From the IMG/VR virus record IMGVR_UViG_3300012201_000005, positions 1 through 50,759 of that record: DNA of 50,759 nt. The stretch is one strand, 5' to 3'. Below the pieces are notes generated by a model. That model ran no database searches, was not told where the DNA came from, and saw nothing but the letters and a program-made list of their open reading frames with translations. Below are positions 4,201 to 25,398 of the stretch, piece by piece. Within the stretch, counting starts at the first letter, position 1. Each line of letters starts with the position of its first letter. Origin of the DNA: a virus. The translations under genes were made by a program, and so were the position numbers.

Positions 4201-4608
4201 ATTGGGGCTCAGATTGCGGCAGCGCTTCAAGATGGGTTTCAGGCTGGAGAAGTCGACACCCTCAAGACAACGATTTCTGACCTCTATTCTCAGGCCACTT
4301 CGGCAGTCACTCAGATCAATACGCTGTTCCCAGGATTCGCATCTGGTACCGATTGGGCTCCCGGTGGCATCGCCTTGGTAGGTGAACAGGGCCCTGAGCT
4401 GATGAACGTCCCTCGAGGCTCACAGATCGTTCCTGCGGCCCAAACCAGACGACTTTTACAATCGACTCAGAATAACCAAACCAACAATACCTCGACAAAG
4501 GGGGATACCGTGATCAGCATCCAATCAAATGCACCGCTTGACCCATTGCAGACGGCTAGAGCTGTGAGAGAGACTATGGAATCCTTGGCCTTTGCGGGAG
4601 TGGCATGA
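1261..4608 (+). CDS. Tape measure protein
   Basis: This 1115-aa protein sets tail length and is expelled during DNA ejection. It starts with TTG at 1261 after AGGAGGTGAG at 1249-1258. Residues about 50-220 match the conserved tape-measure N-terminal domain, with motifs such as VAIDTPLEFADVRDAGKQLL and VDINQFANRGIPIWEELAKV. A hydrophobic stretch follows at about 275-330, then long Ala/Lys/Glu/Gln-rich helical stretches. Near the C-terminus is the motif FASGTDWAPGGIALVGEQGP, a hallmark of siphovirus tape measures. The gene is the longest in the genome and the stop overlaps the next start (ATGATGA). Tail length could be estimated at roughly 1.5 Angstrom per residue, about 165 nm. Confidence 0.95.
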   Translation: MSVLGELLVQINGDNSGLNKSLNQSSKTAGEFANSIVQKLGGVALAYKALQVAIDGIQYNAMREQAEIAFGVFLGSADKAKAMIKSLQQVAIDTPLEFADVRDAGKQLLAYGVAAEDLVPTIKTLIDVSAGLNIPIKDLSYLYGTIKTQGRAMTVDINQFANRGIPIWEELAKVTGKNGQELRSFVEAGQVGFPIIEKAFQGMTSEGGKFFNMAVKQMDSFVGTQSNLSDATGIYLSNLTAGMMGPLKEGMISITKSMNDATVSSHEFGATLGKVFDIAVAVVGPVFDVLSKMPGEFTAIGIAAGIAFAVFGPWGALVAGIAVSIGAIGKYLDDLDKSKTEGLKSSFLSIAESSKMTADQTKTFLASADKVEQNLISWSGDSSNVATAFGNIAKASGMTAVQVANIAINSDKMSQGQKDVAQQFLKQNGLTAIGSLNTEQIAKNQAAIVARVKESSDLYAKQHPLEIAAAKLKAQADKDAAVAAKAQADALRGLLANQEALERGILATNAINKAGNKDVVDSLLDQNKLRSEYLAKLEKEGIEGKASLSFVESETARITGLNNDNLTIIKNLGIAQAGVTIKLQEQNDTSYEFLQGLVETGTTVAHINGLFSLTNLDLTNIGTKQKIVADTQEKVLTATEKTRKELEKIGMGKIFDEILTDSEDWNGRIKDVYNGVRAVWKDGFERMGESLVTGKGSWQGWAAAADKALASVLEGLGMQLAAMAIGKALMNDWTGAALATAGSIAAFVGAGVLNALSDQLSAVVEQEKKTGTTAHVVAKEVAATVTSVQLLAEAVKKAKEQIDKKSDTSSYATELIKQTDAVRLHYQKLEAEAANAARRTVSAMHDTTKAATSHTSTFAQDIAFYTEQGKHSTGALREYYFKLANEVIDARDKAAAKIAADGKVILDAQMQKEIDDLGYNMALFQQRADEAGSNLSSSFADALKKGTSETDFTKSIMDMLRGMAIDAAILAGGFADKFKAIGAQIAAALQDGFQAGEVDTLKTTISDLYSQATSAVTQINTLFPGFASGTDWAPGGIALVGEQGPELMNVPRGSQIVPAAQTRRLLQSTQNNQTNNTSTKGDTVISIQSNAPLDPLQTARAVRETMESLAFAGVA

Positions 4609-6443
4609 TGAGCAAAAGAGCTTTTATCTTTACACAAGCCAACTCTTCGCCATTTGCTGGACTTGATGGATCGGTGACATTCTCCAATGGCACTCAGACT
4701 GCGGATAAGATCCTGCTCATTTCTGCCGATGGACTAGGGGCTCCGGCACTCAGCACTCAGACTCAGAATGCCCCGTTCCAGCAAGGCGCTTCCTTGATTA
4801 GGACATTATTCCAGCCCAGGACTATTACCCTGGAATGTGCTATCTCGGTTCCTGCCGCGAGTTCAAGCGGTCGTGCCGAGGTGACCACGATCAAGCGTCG
4901 TTTATCAAAGTATCTTTCACCAGTTGGCATGGGGTTCCTTCCTGACACTTCCTTGACCTTGTCGAACTATTCCACTTGGATCGGAAAGCTTTCCTATGCC
5001 TCGAATGGGACGACCTTTGACCGGTTCATTGACTGTGTACCGATGACCGTTGAGTTCCCGAATGCCTTTTATCAGGATGGGTTCCAGAAGATGCGGGTCG
5101 TGTTCTTCTGTCCTGATCCATTTTGGTATGGCGCAGATCAGACCCAGACTATGGCTAATGTTTCCTTAGCCATTTCTGGAATTTGGGCTTCTATTGCATG
5201 GTCACCAACGTTAAGATTATTCTGTTCTCCAGAATATGGAACAACACGTATCCAGACATCCCCCGATGGAATTAACTGGACTCTCCATAATACAGCAGGG
5301 GCGGCAGGGGCCCAATGGTATGTCACGGTATGGAGTCCGGAATTAGCATTGTTTTGTAGTATAGCTACAACCAATACAGCCATCCAAACATCCCCAGATG
5401 GATTGGTATGGACATTGAGAACAGGAGTATCGGCTGTTGCATGGGTATCTCTTGCTTGGTCTTCTAAGCTGTCATTATTCTGTGCTGTAGCTGTTTCCAG
5501 CACAAATATTCAGACATCCCCCGATGGGATTAACTGGACATTAAGGACAGGGGTATCTTCTGTTTCCTGGTTTTCAGTATGCTGGTCAGAGGAACTAAAC
5601 ATTTTTTGTGCTATTGCTCAATCCAGCACAAATATTCAGACATCCCCCGATGGAATTAACTGGACATTAAGGACAGGGGCTTCTTCTGCTCAATGGTATT
5701 CCATGACATGGGCTGCTGGACTTGGACTGTTTTGTGTTTGTGGAACAAATGCTATTCAGACATCCCCCGATGGGATTAACTGGACATTAAGGACTAGTGC
5801 ATCCTCGGCTGAATATCGTCGGGTTAAGTGGGCTCCTGAGCTTGGGTTATTATGTTCATTTGCCGCAAATTCTAGCACAGCCATCCAAACATCCCCAGAC
5901 GGAATAACGTGGACATTAAGGGCTGGATCTGGCTCAATAAATAGATTTGACATGGTATGGGCCAATTCAATTGGCATGTTTTGCATTGTTGCCAATTCAG
6001 CAGGGCAATATCCTGAGATCAGCTATGATGGCATCAATTGGGTACAAAACTCAGCCACAACAGACTGGTATGCCACAATCAACAATCAAGGCGACATTTC
6101 AGCTACATTCGCCATTACTATTCCCATTGTCGGCGGAGAAACTGGAAAAGTTGTCGCCATAGGTGAAAACTTCCTTTGGGCAGGGTCGGGCGACCCTCCA
6201 TCCGACCACAACATAGTGTTTTCCACTCAGGGACTCAAGACTGGATCAGTGATTCTTAATACGAAGTTTGGATCGAAGACCATCACCCAGTTCGGAAACT
6301 CGGTCATGAACAACTTCGTAGGCGGCACATTCTTCGCGCTCTATGTTTCTGGGTCACAGTCGAACATCCTCTATCTCAGGAATACCGGTACACCAGCGGC
6401 AGCTCCATCCATAACTTATCGGAACAGGTATATTGACGTATGA
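4605..6443 (+). CDS. Distal tail protein (Dit-like) with inserted seven-blade beta-propeller
   Basis: A 612-aa protein. The first ~180 residues and the last ~110 look like the N- and C-terminal parts of a Dit or tail-tip family protein. Between them (about residues 180-490) lie seven units, each with a W-S/A-x-x-LxLFC strand followed by IQTSPDGINWTLR, resembling BNR/Asp-box propeller repeats. Seven WxxxxxLFC-like strands and seven S-x-DGxxW motifs are present, so a closed seven-bladed propeller is predicted. Such inserts in tail-tip proteins commonly carry carbohydrate-binding or receptor-recognition function; that role is inferred. The start may be ATG 4605, overlapping the tape measure stop, or ATG 4608; GGGAG at 4596-4600 favours the second slightly. 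It is followed by a gene overlapping by four bases. Confidence 0.8.
   Translation: MMSKRAFIFTQANSSPFAGLDGSVTFSNGTQTADKILLISADGLGAPALSTQTQNAPFQQGASLIRTLFQPRTITLECAISVPAASSSGRAEVTTIKRRLSKYLSPVGMGFLPDTSLTLSNYSTWIGKLSYASNGTTFDRFIDCVPMTVEFPNAFYQDGFQKMRVVFFCPDPFWYGADQTQTMANVSLAISGIWASIAWSPTLRLFCSPEYGTTRIQTSPDGINWTLHNTAGAAGAQWYVTVWSPELALFCSIATTNTAIQTSPDGLVWTLRTGVSAVAWVSLAWSSKLSLFCAVAVSSTNIQTSPDGINWTLRTGVSSVSWFSVCWSEELNIFCAIAQSSTNIQTSPDGINWTLRTGASSAQWYSMTWAAGLGLFCVCGTNAIQTSPDGINWTLRTSASSAEYRRVKWAPELGLLCSFAANSSTAIQTSPDGITWTLRAGSGSINRFDMVWANSIGMFCIVANSAGQYPEISYDGINWVQNSATTDWYATINNQGDISATFAITIPIVGGETGKVVAIGENFLWAGSGDPPSDHNIVFSTQGLKTGSVILNTKFGSKTITQFGNSVMNNFVGGTFFALYVSGSQSNILYLRNTGTPAAAPSITYRNRYIDV
5253..5930 (+). 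repeat. In-frame tandem repeats encoding propeller blades
   Basis: Near-identical DNA units beginning CAGACATCC or CAAACATCC occur at 5253, 5385, 5511, 5637, 5757 and 5886, with spacings of 132, 126, 126, 120 and 129 bp, all multiples of three. Units at 5511, 5637 and 5757 share long stretches of near identity. The conservation at DNA level suggests recent unit duplication or gene conversion. Confidence 0.85.
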
Positions 6444-13620: not shown

Positions 13621-13733
13621 TCCATGATGGCCTGAACGGTATCGGCACACTGATGATCAACGGTGGAACGCAGTTGCCCTAAGAACGGTGAAACCGGAAA
13701 AGGTGGTTAGGGGTTCGAATCCCTTTCATGGAT
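13621..13733 (+). tRNA. tRNA-like element with abnormal anticodon/variable region
   Basis: The 7-bp acceptor TCCATGA (13621-13627) / TCATGGA (13726-13732) is perfect. D-arm GCC/GGC (13630-13632, 13644-13646) has a GG-containing loop. T-arm AGGGG-TTCGAAT-CCCTT (13709-13725) is canonical. The anticodon arm CACTG/CGGTG (13648-13652, 13661-13665) has an 8-nt loop ATGATCAA and then a 43-nt variable region. Alternatively the 3' anticodon strand is the second CGGTG (13686-13690), leaving a class II-like 18-nt variable arm and an oversized 33-nt loop. AACGGTG is duplicated at 13659 and 13684, so an insertion/duplication is likely. CCA is not encoded. It may be a decayed tRNA. Confidence 0.45.
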
Positions 13734-13761
13734 AAAAGCTCGTTGGGCAAAAGGAGTGAAA

Positions 13762-15036
13762 ATGGAACGAATCGAGAAAAGGGCTGACGAACTTCATGCC
13801 CTGGGGTTGAAGTTTGACGGTGAGCAATACCACGGCACCTGGAACATGATTGACATCAACGTCCATCATATTGAGATGACAACCATGAACGAAGAGGACT
13901 GGGGCAAGATGGTGTCCGACCTCAAGAAAGTCATCATCGAGCATGGTCCATCTTTGCCGGTGGCTGAGCTTCCGGCATTGATCGGCACCATCGAGGACGT
14001 TCCTGCGGGAACGATCAAGAACGCGCTGGTCAAGTTGAACATCACAGACGTTGAGCTTGCCAAGATCAGAACGTTGGTCATATCGGCTGTTGAGAAATAT
14101 GACGGCACCAAGGCGTCCTATGAGGCCGTCAAGCGCGCCAGGCTCGATGTGGTGCCCAAGCGCACTTCGGTCAAAAAAGAGGCTGAGGAAGGCAGGGCCG
14201 AGGCAATCCAGGTGCAAAAGCTTTGGATCGGTGCCGAGAAGACCGTCACGAAGTTCTACGCCGACTTGGAAGCCCTTTGTGTCGCCAAAGAAGCCGAATA
14301 TGAAGCCGAAATCAAGCGCAAGGCCGACGAAGCCGAAGCCAAAGAAAAAGTTCGGGTGCAAGCACTTCTCGACCGGCTGACCCCGTTTGAGTGGGCAGGG
14401 AACCCATTTGAGGTTGCCCAGGACACTCCCGCCATGTTCGCCGAAAGGTTGGCTAAGGCTCAGGAGTCGTTTCGGCTGATCGAAGCGGGGCGCAAGGCTG
14501 AGGCTGATCGTTTGGCCCGTGAAGAACAGGAGCGCAAAGACGCCGAGGAACGCAACCGGATCGAAGCCGAACGTCTGGCCAAGATTCAGCGCGAACAAGA
14601 CGCCGCTGCCGCCAAGCTCAAGGCCGACCAGGAAGCCTTCGCCAAACAACAGCAGGAAGCCCGTGAAGCCGCCGACTGTGCCGAGCGTGAAAGACTGGCC
14701 AAGGTTGCCGCGGACGAACGGCAAGCACGACTCAAGGCCGAAGCGGAGACTTTGCGCCTTAAGAAGGAAGCTGATGCGAAGCTCAGGGCCGAGGAAGACG
14801 CGAAGCAAGCCCAGTTGAAGGCCGAAGCTGACGCCAAGGCCGCAGAAGCTGAAAAGGCACGGTTGGCTGCACTGGCCCCGGACAAGGAAAAGGTCAAGGC
14901 TTGGGCCTGGAACATCGAAGCTGAGATTGACGACGACCTTCCCGAGGTCCAGGACAAGGAACTCTTTGCCGCCATGGCTTCGACGAAGGTCCAGATCATG
15001 GACTTGATTCACGCCCTGATGGCACTCGCTAAGTAA
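13762..15036 (+). CDS. Large Ala/Glu/Lys coiled-coil protein in recombination region
   Basis: A 424-aa protein with AAAGGAG (13750-13756) before ATG 13762. Residues 1-180 are mixed alpha/beta; about 190-375 form a long, highly charged, Ala-rich coiled coil (KAEADRLAREEQERKDAEER is typical); the last 50 are helical and less charged. No catalytic motif is seen. Its codon pattern leaves a long mirror-image open frame on the minus strand, which I treat as a shadow. Its placement upstream of Erf and YqaJ recalls DUF1351-like genes in phage recombination loci, but I cannot confirm the family. A structural or scaffold role in recombination or DNA handling is possible. Confidence 0.75.
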   Translation: MERIEKRADELHALGLKFDGEQYHGTWNMIDINVHHIEMTTMNEEDWGKMVSDLKKVIIEHGPSLPVAELPALIGTIEDVPAGTIKNALVKLNITDVELAKIRTLVISAVEKYDGTKASYEAVKRARLDVVPKRTSVKKEAEEGRAEAIQVQKLWIGAEKTVTKFYADLEALCVAKEAEYEAEIKRKADEAEAKEKVRVQALLDRLTPFEWAGNPFEVAQDTPAMFAERLAKAQESFRLIEAGRKAEADRLAREEQERKDAEERNRIEAERLAKIQREQDAAAAKLKADQEAFAKQQQEAREAADCAERERLAKVAADERQARLKAEAETLRLKKEADAKLRAEEDAKQAQLKAEADAKAAEAEKARLAALAPDKEKVKAWAWNIEAEIDDDLPEVQDKELFAAMASTKVQIMDLIHALMALAK

Positions 15037-15078
15037 CAAAGAAAGTTGGACCGGCGCGGATCGACCGGAAAGGAAGGA

Positions 15079-23817: not shown

Positions 23818-24071
23818 CGAAACAAACCGAGACCAAACTGGCCTCCCTGCTCAAAGCCATCCAGTCGTGGGGACTCATGGAACTAGTCAAGGAGTCCTAC
23901 TGCTACCAGATGGTTTGCCGAATCCTAGACACAGGGAGCGACCTTCAGCCAGCCGGAGAAGACACCGAGGCCGATACCGAAGTGAGTCTGGCCATCGTGA
24001 TCGAGCCGCTTCACTGGGGGATTGACGATCCTTTGTGGAGAGAATTCACGTTGGCGTGGGGCGAGGCTTGA
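23814..24071 (+). CDS. Hypothetical protein
   Basis: An 85-aa acidic protein (ATG 23814, overlapping the previous stop). The C-terminal half (ADTEVSLAIVIEPLHWGIDD) may be a beta-rich domain. Unknown function; its stop lies one base before the dual-coding locus. Confidence 0.65.
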   Translation: MTKQTETKLASLLKAIQSWGLMELVKESYCYQMVCRILDTGSDLQPAGEDTEADTEVSLAIVIEPLHWGIDDPLWREFTLAWGEA

Positions 24072-25190
24072 ATGGCATGGCACATTTCCCAAGCATTGAT
24101 GAACCAATACGAAAAAGCGAACTCTTTGCCGGTGCCGGAGGCGGAATCCTGGGAGGTCTCCTCCTCGGGGAAGTTACGGTCTGCGCCGTCGAGTGGGACC
24201 CATATTGCGCTTCTGCACTTGCCCAAAGACAGAATGACGGCTTTCTCGATCCATTCCCTATCTGGGACGACGTTAGGACTTTTGACGGATTCTCTTGGCG
24301 AGGACGTGTTGACCTGGTTTCTGGCGGGTTCCCCTGTCAGGATATCAGCGCAGCGGGAAAAGGCGAAGGAATCACTGGAGAACGTTCTGGACTCTGGAAA
24401 GAGTTTAAGCGGATTATTGGCGAAGTACGACCCAGTAGAGTCCGTGTGGAGAACTCCCCAATGCTCACTCTTCGAGGAATCGAGGTTGTACTCGGGGACC
24501 TGGCCGCGCTGGGGTACGATGCAAAATGGGGCGTTCTCGGAGCGGATGACGCCGGGGCACCTCACATCCGCAAGAGGATCTGGATTGTGGGCAAGCCCTG
24601 CGTCAGCGGATTCGGTCGGAAGCCACGGAGGCGGACAGGGTCGGAGTCTGAGGACGGACATCCACAATTGGAAGCGGAGGCTCTGGCCGACTCCAGTCGC
24701 GGACGGGGACAGGACGACGAACTATGCCCAGGGCGGGGAGAGCCTTGGGTTCGTCGTGAGGACATGGCCAACCCCGCGAACTCACGAATCGGGAACATAT
24801 CAGCGAGATCGCGGCGAGAAGGGCAAAGAACGCCCAACGCTGGCCGGAGCGGTCAAGTTTCCGACACCGAAGGCGAGGGATTGGAAACGGGCCGGAGGCA
24901 ACGGGAATACTCCGGACCTCAGTACGTTTGTTCATGGTGGGATGCAGACCCCGCCGACCTACCCGACGCCAACCTCAGTGACGAACAGCGGCGGGAGCGC
25001 GCTGAACAAATGGGGAGGGAGTGGGGCAAGGAAGGCGATGAACGCGCTCTTGCCTTCGGAAGAGATCAATGGGGCGTTGAATCCCGAGTGGGTCGAGTGG
25101 CTCATGGGGTGGCCGCTAGGGTGGACCGACTTAAAGCCATTGGGAACGGCCAGGTTCCAGACGTGGTGGTTCTCGCGGAGAGGTATGTGA
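24072..25190 (+). CDS. WPTP-repeat protein, read in +1 frame over the methyltransferase gene
   Basis: A 372-aa open frame starting at ATG 24072, directly after the previous stop with GGGGCGAGG at 24058-24066. It is not random-looking. The N-terminus is MAWHISQALMNQYEKANSLP, followed by Ser-rich and SLFEESRLYSGTWPRWGTM segments. Four WPTP-type motifs (WPTP 24684, WPTP 24765, FPTP 24858, YPTP 24960) and WVEWLMGWPLGWTDLKPLGT at the end follow. I recall that phage hypothetical proteins with repeated WPTP and a terminal GWP-GWTDLKPL motif exist; no database was checked. It overlaps the methyltransferase by 1114 nt. No enzymatic motif recognised. Confidence 0.7.
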   Translation: MAWHISQALMNQYEKANSLPVPEAESWEVSSSGKLRSAPSSGTHIALLHLPKDRMTAFSIHSLSGTTLGLLTDSLGEDVLTWFLAGSPVRISAQREKAKESLENVLDSGKSLSGLLAKYDPVESVWRTPQCSLFEESRLYSGTWPRWGTMQNGAFSERMTPGHLTSARGSGLWASPASADSVGSHGGGQGRSLRTDIHNWKRRLWPTPVADGDRTTNYAQGGESLGFVVRTWPTPRTHESGTYQRDRGEKGKERPTLAGAVKFPTPKARDWKRAGGNGNTPDLSTFVHGGMQTPPTYPTPTSVTNSGGSALNKWGGSGARKAMNALLPSEEINGALNPEWVEWLMGWPLGWTDLKPLGTARFQTWWFSRRGM

Positions 25191-25195
25191 AATGA
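24077..25195 (+). CDS. DNA (cytosine-5) methyltransferase
   Basis: A 372-aa C5-methyltransferase starting at ATG 24077 (an upstream in-frame ATG at 24035 lies in the previous gene and is not favoured). Motif I LFAGAGGG (16-23), catalytic motif IV GGFPCQDIS with Cys87, ENS (125-127), RKRIWIVG (165-172) and a C-terminal RLKAIGNGQVP (from 351) are in order. The region from about 180 to 330 is the target-recognition part, rich in Arg, Gly and Glu, with LADS, MANP, SDTE and PDAN motifs that coincide with WPTP-type motifs in the other frame. It would methylate phage DNA against host restriction. No cognate restriction enzyme is seen. Confidence 0.93.
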   Translation: MAHFPSIDEPIRKSELFAGAGGGILGGLLLGEVTVCAVEWDPYCASALAQRQNDGFLDPFPIWDDVRTFDGFSWRGRVDLVSGGFPCQDISAAGKGEGITGERSGLWKEFKRIIGEVRPSRVRVENSPMLTLRGIEVVLGDLAALGYDAKWGVLGADDAGAPHIRKRIWIVGKPCVSGFGRKPRRRTGSESEDGHPQLEAEALADSSRGRGQDDELCPGRGEPWVRREDMANPANSRIGNISARSRREGQRTPNAGRSGQVSDTEGEGLETGRRQREYSGPQYVCSWWDADPADLPDANLSDEQRRERAEQMGREWGKEGDERALAFGRDQWGVESRVGRVAHGVAARVDRLKAIGNGQVPDVVVLAERYVK

Positions 25196-25398
25196 CCTGC
25201 GTACAATGTGGCAGACCAATCAGCAGCGCCGAGAGCATGGCAAGTGGTCTGGGCCCGCGGTGCCGCGAACATCGAACGGCGATAGACCAGCCCGAACTAT
25301 TCGGAGTTTCCGAAGAATTGGGAACGAAGCCGAAGAAAGAGGCGGAAGTGATTGACTTCGACGTTTTGACCGGGAGGAAAGGAGGTGCCGGAATCTGA
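25192..25398 (+). CDS. Small zinc-finger protein (DUF6011-like)
   Basis: A 68-aa protein, ATG 25192 overlapping the methyltransferase stop (ATGA). CVQCGRPISSAESMASGLGP then RCREH is the pattern C-x2-C ... G-x-G-P-x-C seen in DUF6011-like small zinc proteins found next to phage replication genes. A polar, Lys-rich tail follows. The function is not known. Confidence 0.75.
   Translation: MTCVQCGRPISSAESMASGLGPRCREHRTAIDQPELFGVSEELGTKPKKEAEVIDFDVLTGRKGGAGI

Follow-up and report, generated by a model that had tools for sequence, protein, structure and literature searches.

Two overlapping phage genes under selection that alternates between reading frames: a probable two-polypeptide cytosine methyltransferase

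Can two almost coextensive reading frames of one phage locus both be genes and, if so, which of the two does selection follow along their length? The question is raised by the window, the 50,759-nucleotide stretch of the IMG/VR virus record IMGVR_UViG_3300012201_000005 analyzed here, a fragment of a tailed-phage genome in which tape measure, terminase, portal and capsid ORFs are recognizable by eye. Two plus-strand frames overlap almost completely in this window: frame A is open at 24035-25195 and frame B at 24072-25190. Frame A carries the catalytic motifs I, IV, VI and VIII of a C5-cytosine DNA methyltransferase (FAGAGGG, PCQD, ENS and PHIRKRIW, respectively). The parts of the locus are as follows.

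24068-25195, plus strand: gene A, a C5-cytosine DNA methyltransferase that has motifs I-VIII and X and lacks an in-frame motif IX
24072-25190, plus strand: gene B, +1-frame companion of 372 amino acids, proposed small-domain/target-recognition subunit; matches phrog_1008 (7.1e-33), open and conserved in relatives
24068-24079, plus strand: tandem start region TTGAATGGCATG, with A-frame TTG at 24068, B ATG at 24072 and A-frame ATG at 24077
24122-24583, plus strand: catalytic block from LFAGAGG (motif I) through motif VIII; frame A sets selection, B constrained too
24588-24683, plus strand: B cassette C1, WASP anchor; against a cassette from Paenibacillus phage Diva, B 69%; against locus L173, B 75%, A 28%
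24684-24764, plus strand: B cassette C2, WPTP (A: LADS...); against Geothrix locus L162, B 92%, A 46%
24765-24857, plus strand: B cassette C3, WPTP (A: MANP...); against L208, B 55%, A 29%
24858-24959, plus strand: B cassette C4, FPTP (A: VSDT...); against L230, B 59%
24960-25076, plus strand: B cassette C5, YPTP (A: LPDA...); against L001, L005 and L162, B 57-61%, A 30-34%
25077-25136, plus strand: B motif-IX-like segment LNPEWVEWLMGWPLGWTDL, aligned by hhalign to canonical motif IX; B-dominated substitutions
25136-25159, plus strand: A motif X, AIGNGQVP; A-dominated substitutions

Three other ORFs of the window deserve mention. A short ORF at 25192-25398, with a DUF6011 match, has an ATG that overlaps the stop codon of A; a 612-amino-acid ORF at 4605-6443, near the tape-measure ORF, contains several tandem TSPDGINWTLRTG-like repeats; and a 437-amino-acid minus-strand ORF at 13726-15039 lies almost exactly opposite a 426-amino-acid plus-strand ORF rich in Ala, Glu and Lys, the composition of which it probably mirrors.

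Two genes in one locus

The arrangement is conserved in hundreds of phage and prophage sequences, drawn from viral and genome locus sets that partly overlap. Searches of IMG/VR with A and B separately yielded 160 loci which, together with the window's own, make 161; in 160 of these, both ORFs are present and overlap by more than 300 bases, in a relative frame that is always identical. A genome scan with a B profile recovered 80 loci from many bacterial groups and two archaeal MAGs, probably for the most part prophage or virus sequence, with A overlapping B in every one. A further scan with an A profile gave 80 loci, all of them with B, which is full-length in 77.

A codon-shuffling null model, in which the A protein was kept, left B open over the second half of the window's locus in 1.1% of the trials and across the whole overlap in none of 200. 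Because loci selected with B are biased towards an open B, the shuffle test was repeated on A-selected loci. Among these, B is open in 73 of 74 catalytic halves (5.3 expected) and in 67 of 67 second halves (15 expected), and the third frame is almost never open. B, read in the +1 frame, is a genuine second gene and is conserved. Several loci are irregular: in L269 and L027, which come from the same contig, a stop falls inside B, the A frame of L294 runs into the C-terminus of B, and L184, L195 and L220 have an in-frame stop of A near or after motif VIII. These loci could be either real variants or assembly errors, and some of the type-ii loci considered below could likewise be misassembled; metagenomic contigs may contain errors.

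The starts of the two genes are set in a fixed tandem. A start codon in frame A is located exactly 4 nt upstream of the B start in 199 of 235 relatives, compared with 4.5% at control positions; in the typical start region, RTGAATGAGYTGG, A begins with MNEL and B with MSWL. In the window, the B ATG directly adjoins the stop codon of the ORF before it, and the start of A is uncertain, with TTG at 24068 (the position used in most relatives), ATG at 24077 and GTG at 24035 as the candidates. We rejected, as a general feature, a B start that embeds the ATG of A at +5, which is true of the window and fails across the family, where the upstream A start is the common layout. A single initiation region for both products would be a natural route to equal amounts of two subunits.

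Selection alternates between the frames

In this overlap, the first, second and third codon positions of A are the third, first and second positions of B, respectively (A1=B3, A2=B1, A3=B2), so that rates by codon position tell which frame is being conserved. They were compared in 41 disjoint pairs of relatives, which are not fully independent phylogenetically. Across motifs I-VIII, A3 (=B2) evolves faster than A1 (=B3) in 41 of 41 pairs, whereas in the half with the PTP repeats the pattern is reversed, A1 outpacing A3 in each of the 24 pairs that had enough sites. Further downstream, B again dominates in the LNPxWVEWLMGW segment (A3/A1 0.33) and A in the motif X segment (A3/A1 2.29). In the catalytic half, B is still constrained, with A-silent/B-nonsilent changes being rarer than changes silent in both frames. 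Thus, the codon-position rates bear out the proposal of the initial annotation that selection is divided along the locus, with A governing the catalytic half and B the WPTP half, but the division into two parts has to give way to one into three, motif X returning to A. The resulting succession, A (motifs I-VIII), B (cassettes and motif-IX-like segment) and A again (motif X), is the canonical order of the enzyme.

The anchors of the B repeats leave a visible trace in frame A. Four motifs of A (LADS, MANP, SDTE and PDAN) had been described as coinciding base for base with PTP motifs of B. All four pairs are present and, for two of them, the match is exact at a one-base offset, LADS (24683-24694) lying over WPTP (24684-24695) and MANP (24764-24775) over WPTP (24765-24776); the other two had been mis-registered by one residue, FPTP (24858-24869) lying over VSDT (24857-24868) rather than SDTE and YPTP (24960-24971) over LPDA (24959-24970) rather than PDAN. 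A fifth, earlier anchor, WASP at 24588 over VGKP, makes the series WASP, WPTP, WPTP, FPTP, YPTP. The sequence TGG CCN ACN CCN, read one base earlier, translates as [LMV]-Ala-[DNHY]-[STAP], and the mark of this forcing is clear where the frame-A pattern [VLM]A[DNHY][SATP] occurs in the second half of the relatives (n=202): GCC accounts for 95.5% of the Ala codons (30.5% in the catalytic half), the third codon has a final C in 100% against 63%, the fourth in 98.5% against 31%, and frame B reads xPTP in 186 of the 202. LADS and MANP in A are shadows of WPTP in B. The behavior that would speak against a WPTP half constrained by B, namely, drift of WPTP under a persistent LAD or MAN motif, is absent from the relatives, where the opposite is found.

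The B segments between the anchors form families that are common to otherwise different loci (463 modules in 167 loci). Most of the proteins contain two to four modules, with a range of one to six among the relatives and five in the window. Over 1230 pairs of shared modules, the mean identity is 76% in B and 37% in A, with A never above B, and the ordinal position differs in 59% of the pairs. The modules are thus shared and moved between loci, and might determine specificity. The part of A that had been taken for the target-recognition half of the methyltransferase looks unconserved in that frame and is probably a disordered tether; the recognition modules most likely reside in B rather than in the second half of A.

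The proposed division of the enzyme

The Pfam and structural matches of A are confined to its catalytic part. The PF00145 match (E 1.5e-29) spans residues 26-186 only and ends past motif VIII, Foldseek aligns M.HhaI and M.HaeIII over about 167 columns of the catalytic part alone, and the PHROG match of A is to phrog_363 (2.7e-58). In the structural model of A, residues 27-190 are mostly well predicted and residues 211-310 mostly have pLDDT<50. Given the low pLDDT and the limitation of the structural match to the catalytic part, the second half of A acts like a tether leading to motif X, one that, in the model, is probably disordered.

Frame A does not combine motif IX with a target-recognition domain (TRD) in the same polypeptide. 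A survey of 62 methyltransferase ORFs in 30 genomes detected motif IX in the ORF's own frame in none of the 29 ORFs with B and in 30 of the 33 without B (19 by pattern and 11 by eye). When the ends of 250 diverse B proteins were compared with canonical motif IX using hhalign, the score was 17.9 against a shuffle maximum of 13.8, none of 300 column shuffles being as good; this match is short and, in absolute terms, weak (E 0.0046, probability 7.6%), and the conserved Glu of B is located two positions later than in canonical motif IX. With the close B set only, the score (13.0) stayed below the shuffle maximum (13.4), short of significance. The layout is, then, one with motifs I-VIII and X on A and, by a short and moderately significant match, motif IX on B. 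This layout is not invariable: in seven relatives, motif X is found in frame B, and in five of these, A ends 7-18 residues past motif VIII, after which stops fill frame A. In mycobacteriophage Datway, a protein with motifs I-VIII is followed, with hardly any overlap, by a B-type protein with motif X (gp76/gp75).

It appears quite probable, therefore, that the locus encodes a two-polypeptide C5-cytosine DNA methyltransferase, with its two structural domains in the overlapping frames A and B. Frame A would provide the large domain, consisting of motifs I-VIII, a poorly conserved, probably disordered tether and motif X, and frame B, from its own start a few bases away from that of A, would provide the small domain, with a conserved N-terminal part, interchangeable xPTP recognition cassettes and a C-terminal end that acts as motif IX. 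Together, the two chains would form a single enzyme, presumably a heterodimer, that could mark the phage DNA against host restriction, plausibly at several sequences. The broader view, that these loci represent a widespread class of phage enzymes in which the domains are laid out block-wise in alternating frames, the frame under selection changes where one domain meets the next, and specificity is reassorted via the B cassettes, with the A translation hardly mattering, we hold to be slightly better than an even bet. Such a layout may have been derived from a single-chain enzyme through two compensating frameshifts around the recognition-IX block.

The main competitor is the possibility that B is a protein in its own right, for instance, a regulator, an anti-restriction factor or a partner for some other enzyme, and does no more than share DNA with A. 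Neither Pfam nor any solved structure offers a relative that would give B a function: B has no Pfam domain, a Pfam search over 71 B members gave chance matches only, and a PDB profile search with B returned nothing meaningful. Moreover, the roughly 160 residues that make up the N-terminal half of B are conserved with no known role, and the AlphaFold model of B alone is not confident (pLDDT 54.6). Nevertheless, none of the locus sets sampled yielded B without A, motif IX is missing from A exactly where B occurs, and motif X can move into the B polypeptide, as in Datway, so that an independent role of B seems unlikely. A still smaller chance attaches to programmed frameshifting that would produce a single canonical polypeptide by crossing from A into B past motif VIII and returning to A ahead of motif X. 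The A-B-A order of the selected blocks, which reproduces the canonical succession of motifs I-VIII, recognition region, IX and X, would fit such a mechanism; however, it requires neither a catalytic half of B that is open almost throughout the A-selected loci, nor constraint on B within that half, nor a B start codon in fixed tandem with that of A, and all three count against it. Finally, although high G+C makes stops scarcer and long chance ORFs occur on the minus strand too, the notion of B as an artefact, a frame left open by the codon bias of A, is contradicted by the codon-shuffle nulls, the reversal of the codon-position pattern between blocks, the GCC and C-ending codons forced under PTP, the phrog_1008 match and the existing annotation of the internal gene in Paenibacillus phage Diva, and hardly merits belief.

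For two of the three remaining ORFs without B in the motif IX survey (L352 and L356), a +1-frame companion ends in a canonical motif IX (IRWLSGSERLxMMGFASDWM); on this evidence, the two would represent a second, different family of C5 methyltransferases with the same layout; the companion in L356 has one internal stop. Separately, the C5 methyltransferases of L378/L396 and L382 share their DNA with a +1-frame protein that contains the motif YYLSxxACxGILRRA or a close variant. In L396, possibly a degraded prophage, neither of the expected motifs, IX and X, was found.

Relationship to known systems and annotation

M.EcoHK31I is a two-polypeptide C5 methyltransferase that recognizes YGGCCR, and its small gene lies inside the large one in another frame. 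In the published layout, the larger subunit contains motifs I-VIII and X and the TRD is predicted on that subunit as well, with motif IX on the smaller polypeptide (PMC3404938). Compared by this layout only, the phage pair is alike in having I-VIII and X on one chain and IX on the other, but differs in that the second half of A is unconserved and the cassettes are in B, as well as in its occurrence in phages and prophages. In M.AquI, the break between the alpha and beta chains falls past motif VIII and ahead of the recognition region, and the second polypeptide carries IX-X (PMC3404938). Datway gp76/gp75 and the type-ii loci (L109, L116, L163, L165 and L317) resemble that split, and motif X is on the second polypeptide in the seven relatives and Datway, whereas in the window motif X is on A and the genes overlap over ~1.1 kb; in M.AquI, the variable region is itself split between the subunits.

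The methyltransferases of phages SPR, phi3T, rho11 and H2 contain recognition modules in a row within a single polypeptide with a canonical motif IX. These Bacillus phage C5 enzymes are multispecific, as cited in PMC8936443. They share with the present system a phage origin and several modules in a row, but here the modules are in the other frame and would only by analogy make the enzyme multispecific. In mycobacteriophage ShiLan, an HNH endonuclease is hidden within a methylase, as in other mycobacteriophage methylases, that is, a second protein in another frame of a phage methylase; however, this is a homing insertion, and no methyltransferase motif has moved to the hidden protein (PMC11855218). 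Among protein families, PHROG 1008 and PHROG 363, both labeled 'DNA methyltransferase', match B and A of the window, respectively, and are filed as separate families, the overlap not being expressed there. No description of the phage arrangement was found in the literature searched, which is weak evidence of novelty because most subscription papers were outside its reach; what appears to be new is that the frames switch block by block, that the second frame holds an array of cassettes and that the arrangement is so widely distributed among phages.

If the two-polypeptide reading is correct, the locus would be a clear natural case of two fully overlapping genes that divide selection between them domain by domain, and the sequence diversity of the loci suffices for a quantitative study of overprinting. 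Furthermore, phrog_1008, a large phage family with a generic label only, would gain a testable function, half of a C5 methyltransferase may go unrecorded in annotated phage genomes, and cloning A alone would be expected to yield an inactive enzyme. The pair is easy to miss inasmuch as gene finders tend to report one gene of two. Three overlapping pairs in GenBank illustrate the range of outcomes: only A is annotated in Acinetobacter phage ABMM1 (L392), only B, as hypothetical, in phPA-G (L393), and both genes in Paenibacillus phage Diva (L395), where B is recorded as 'g49 internal gene'.
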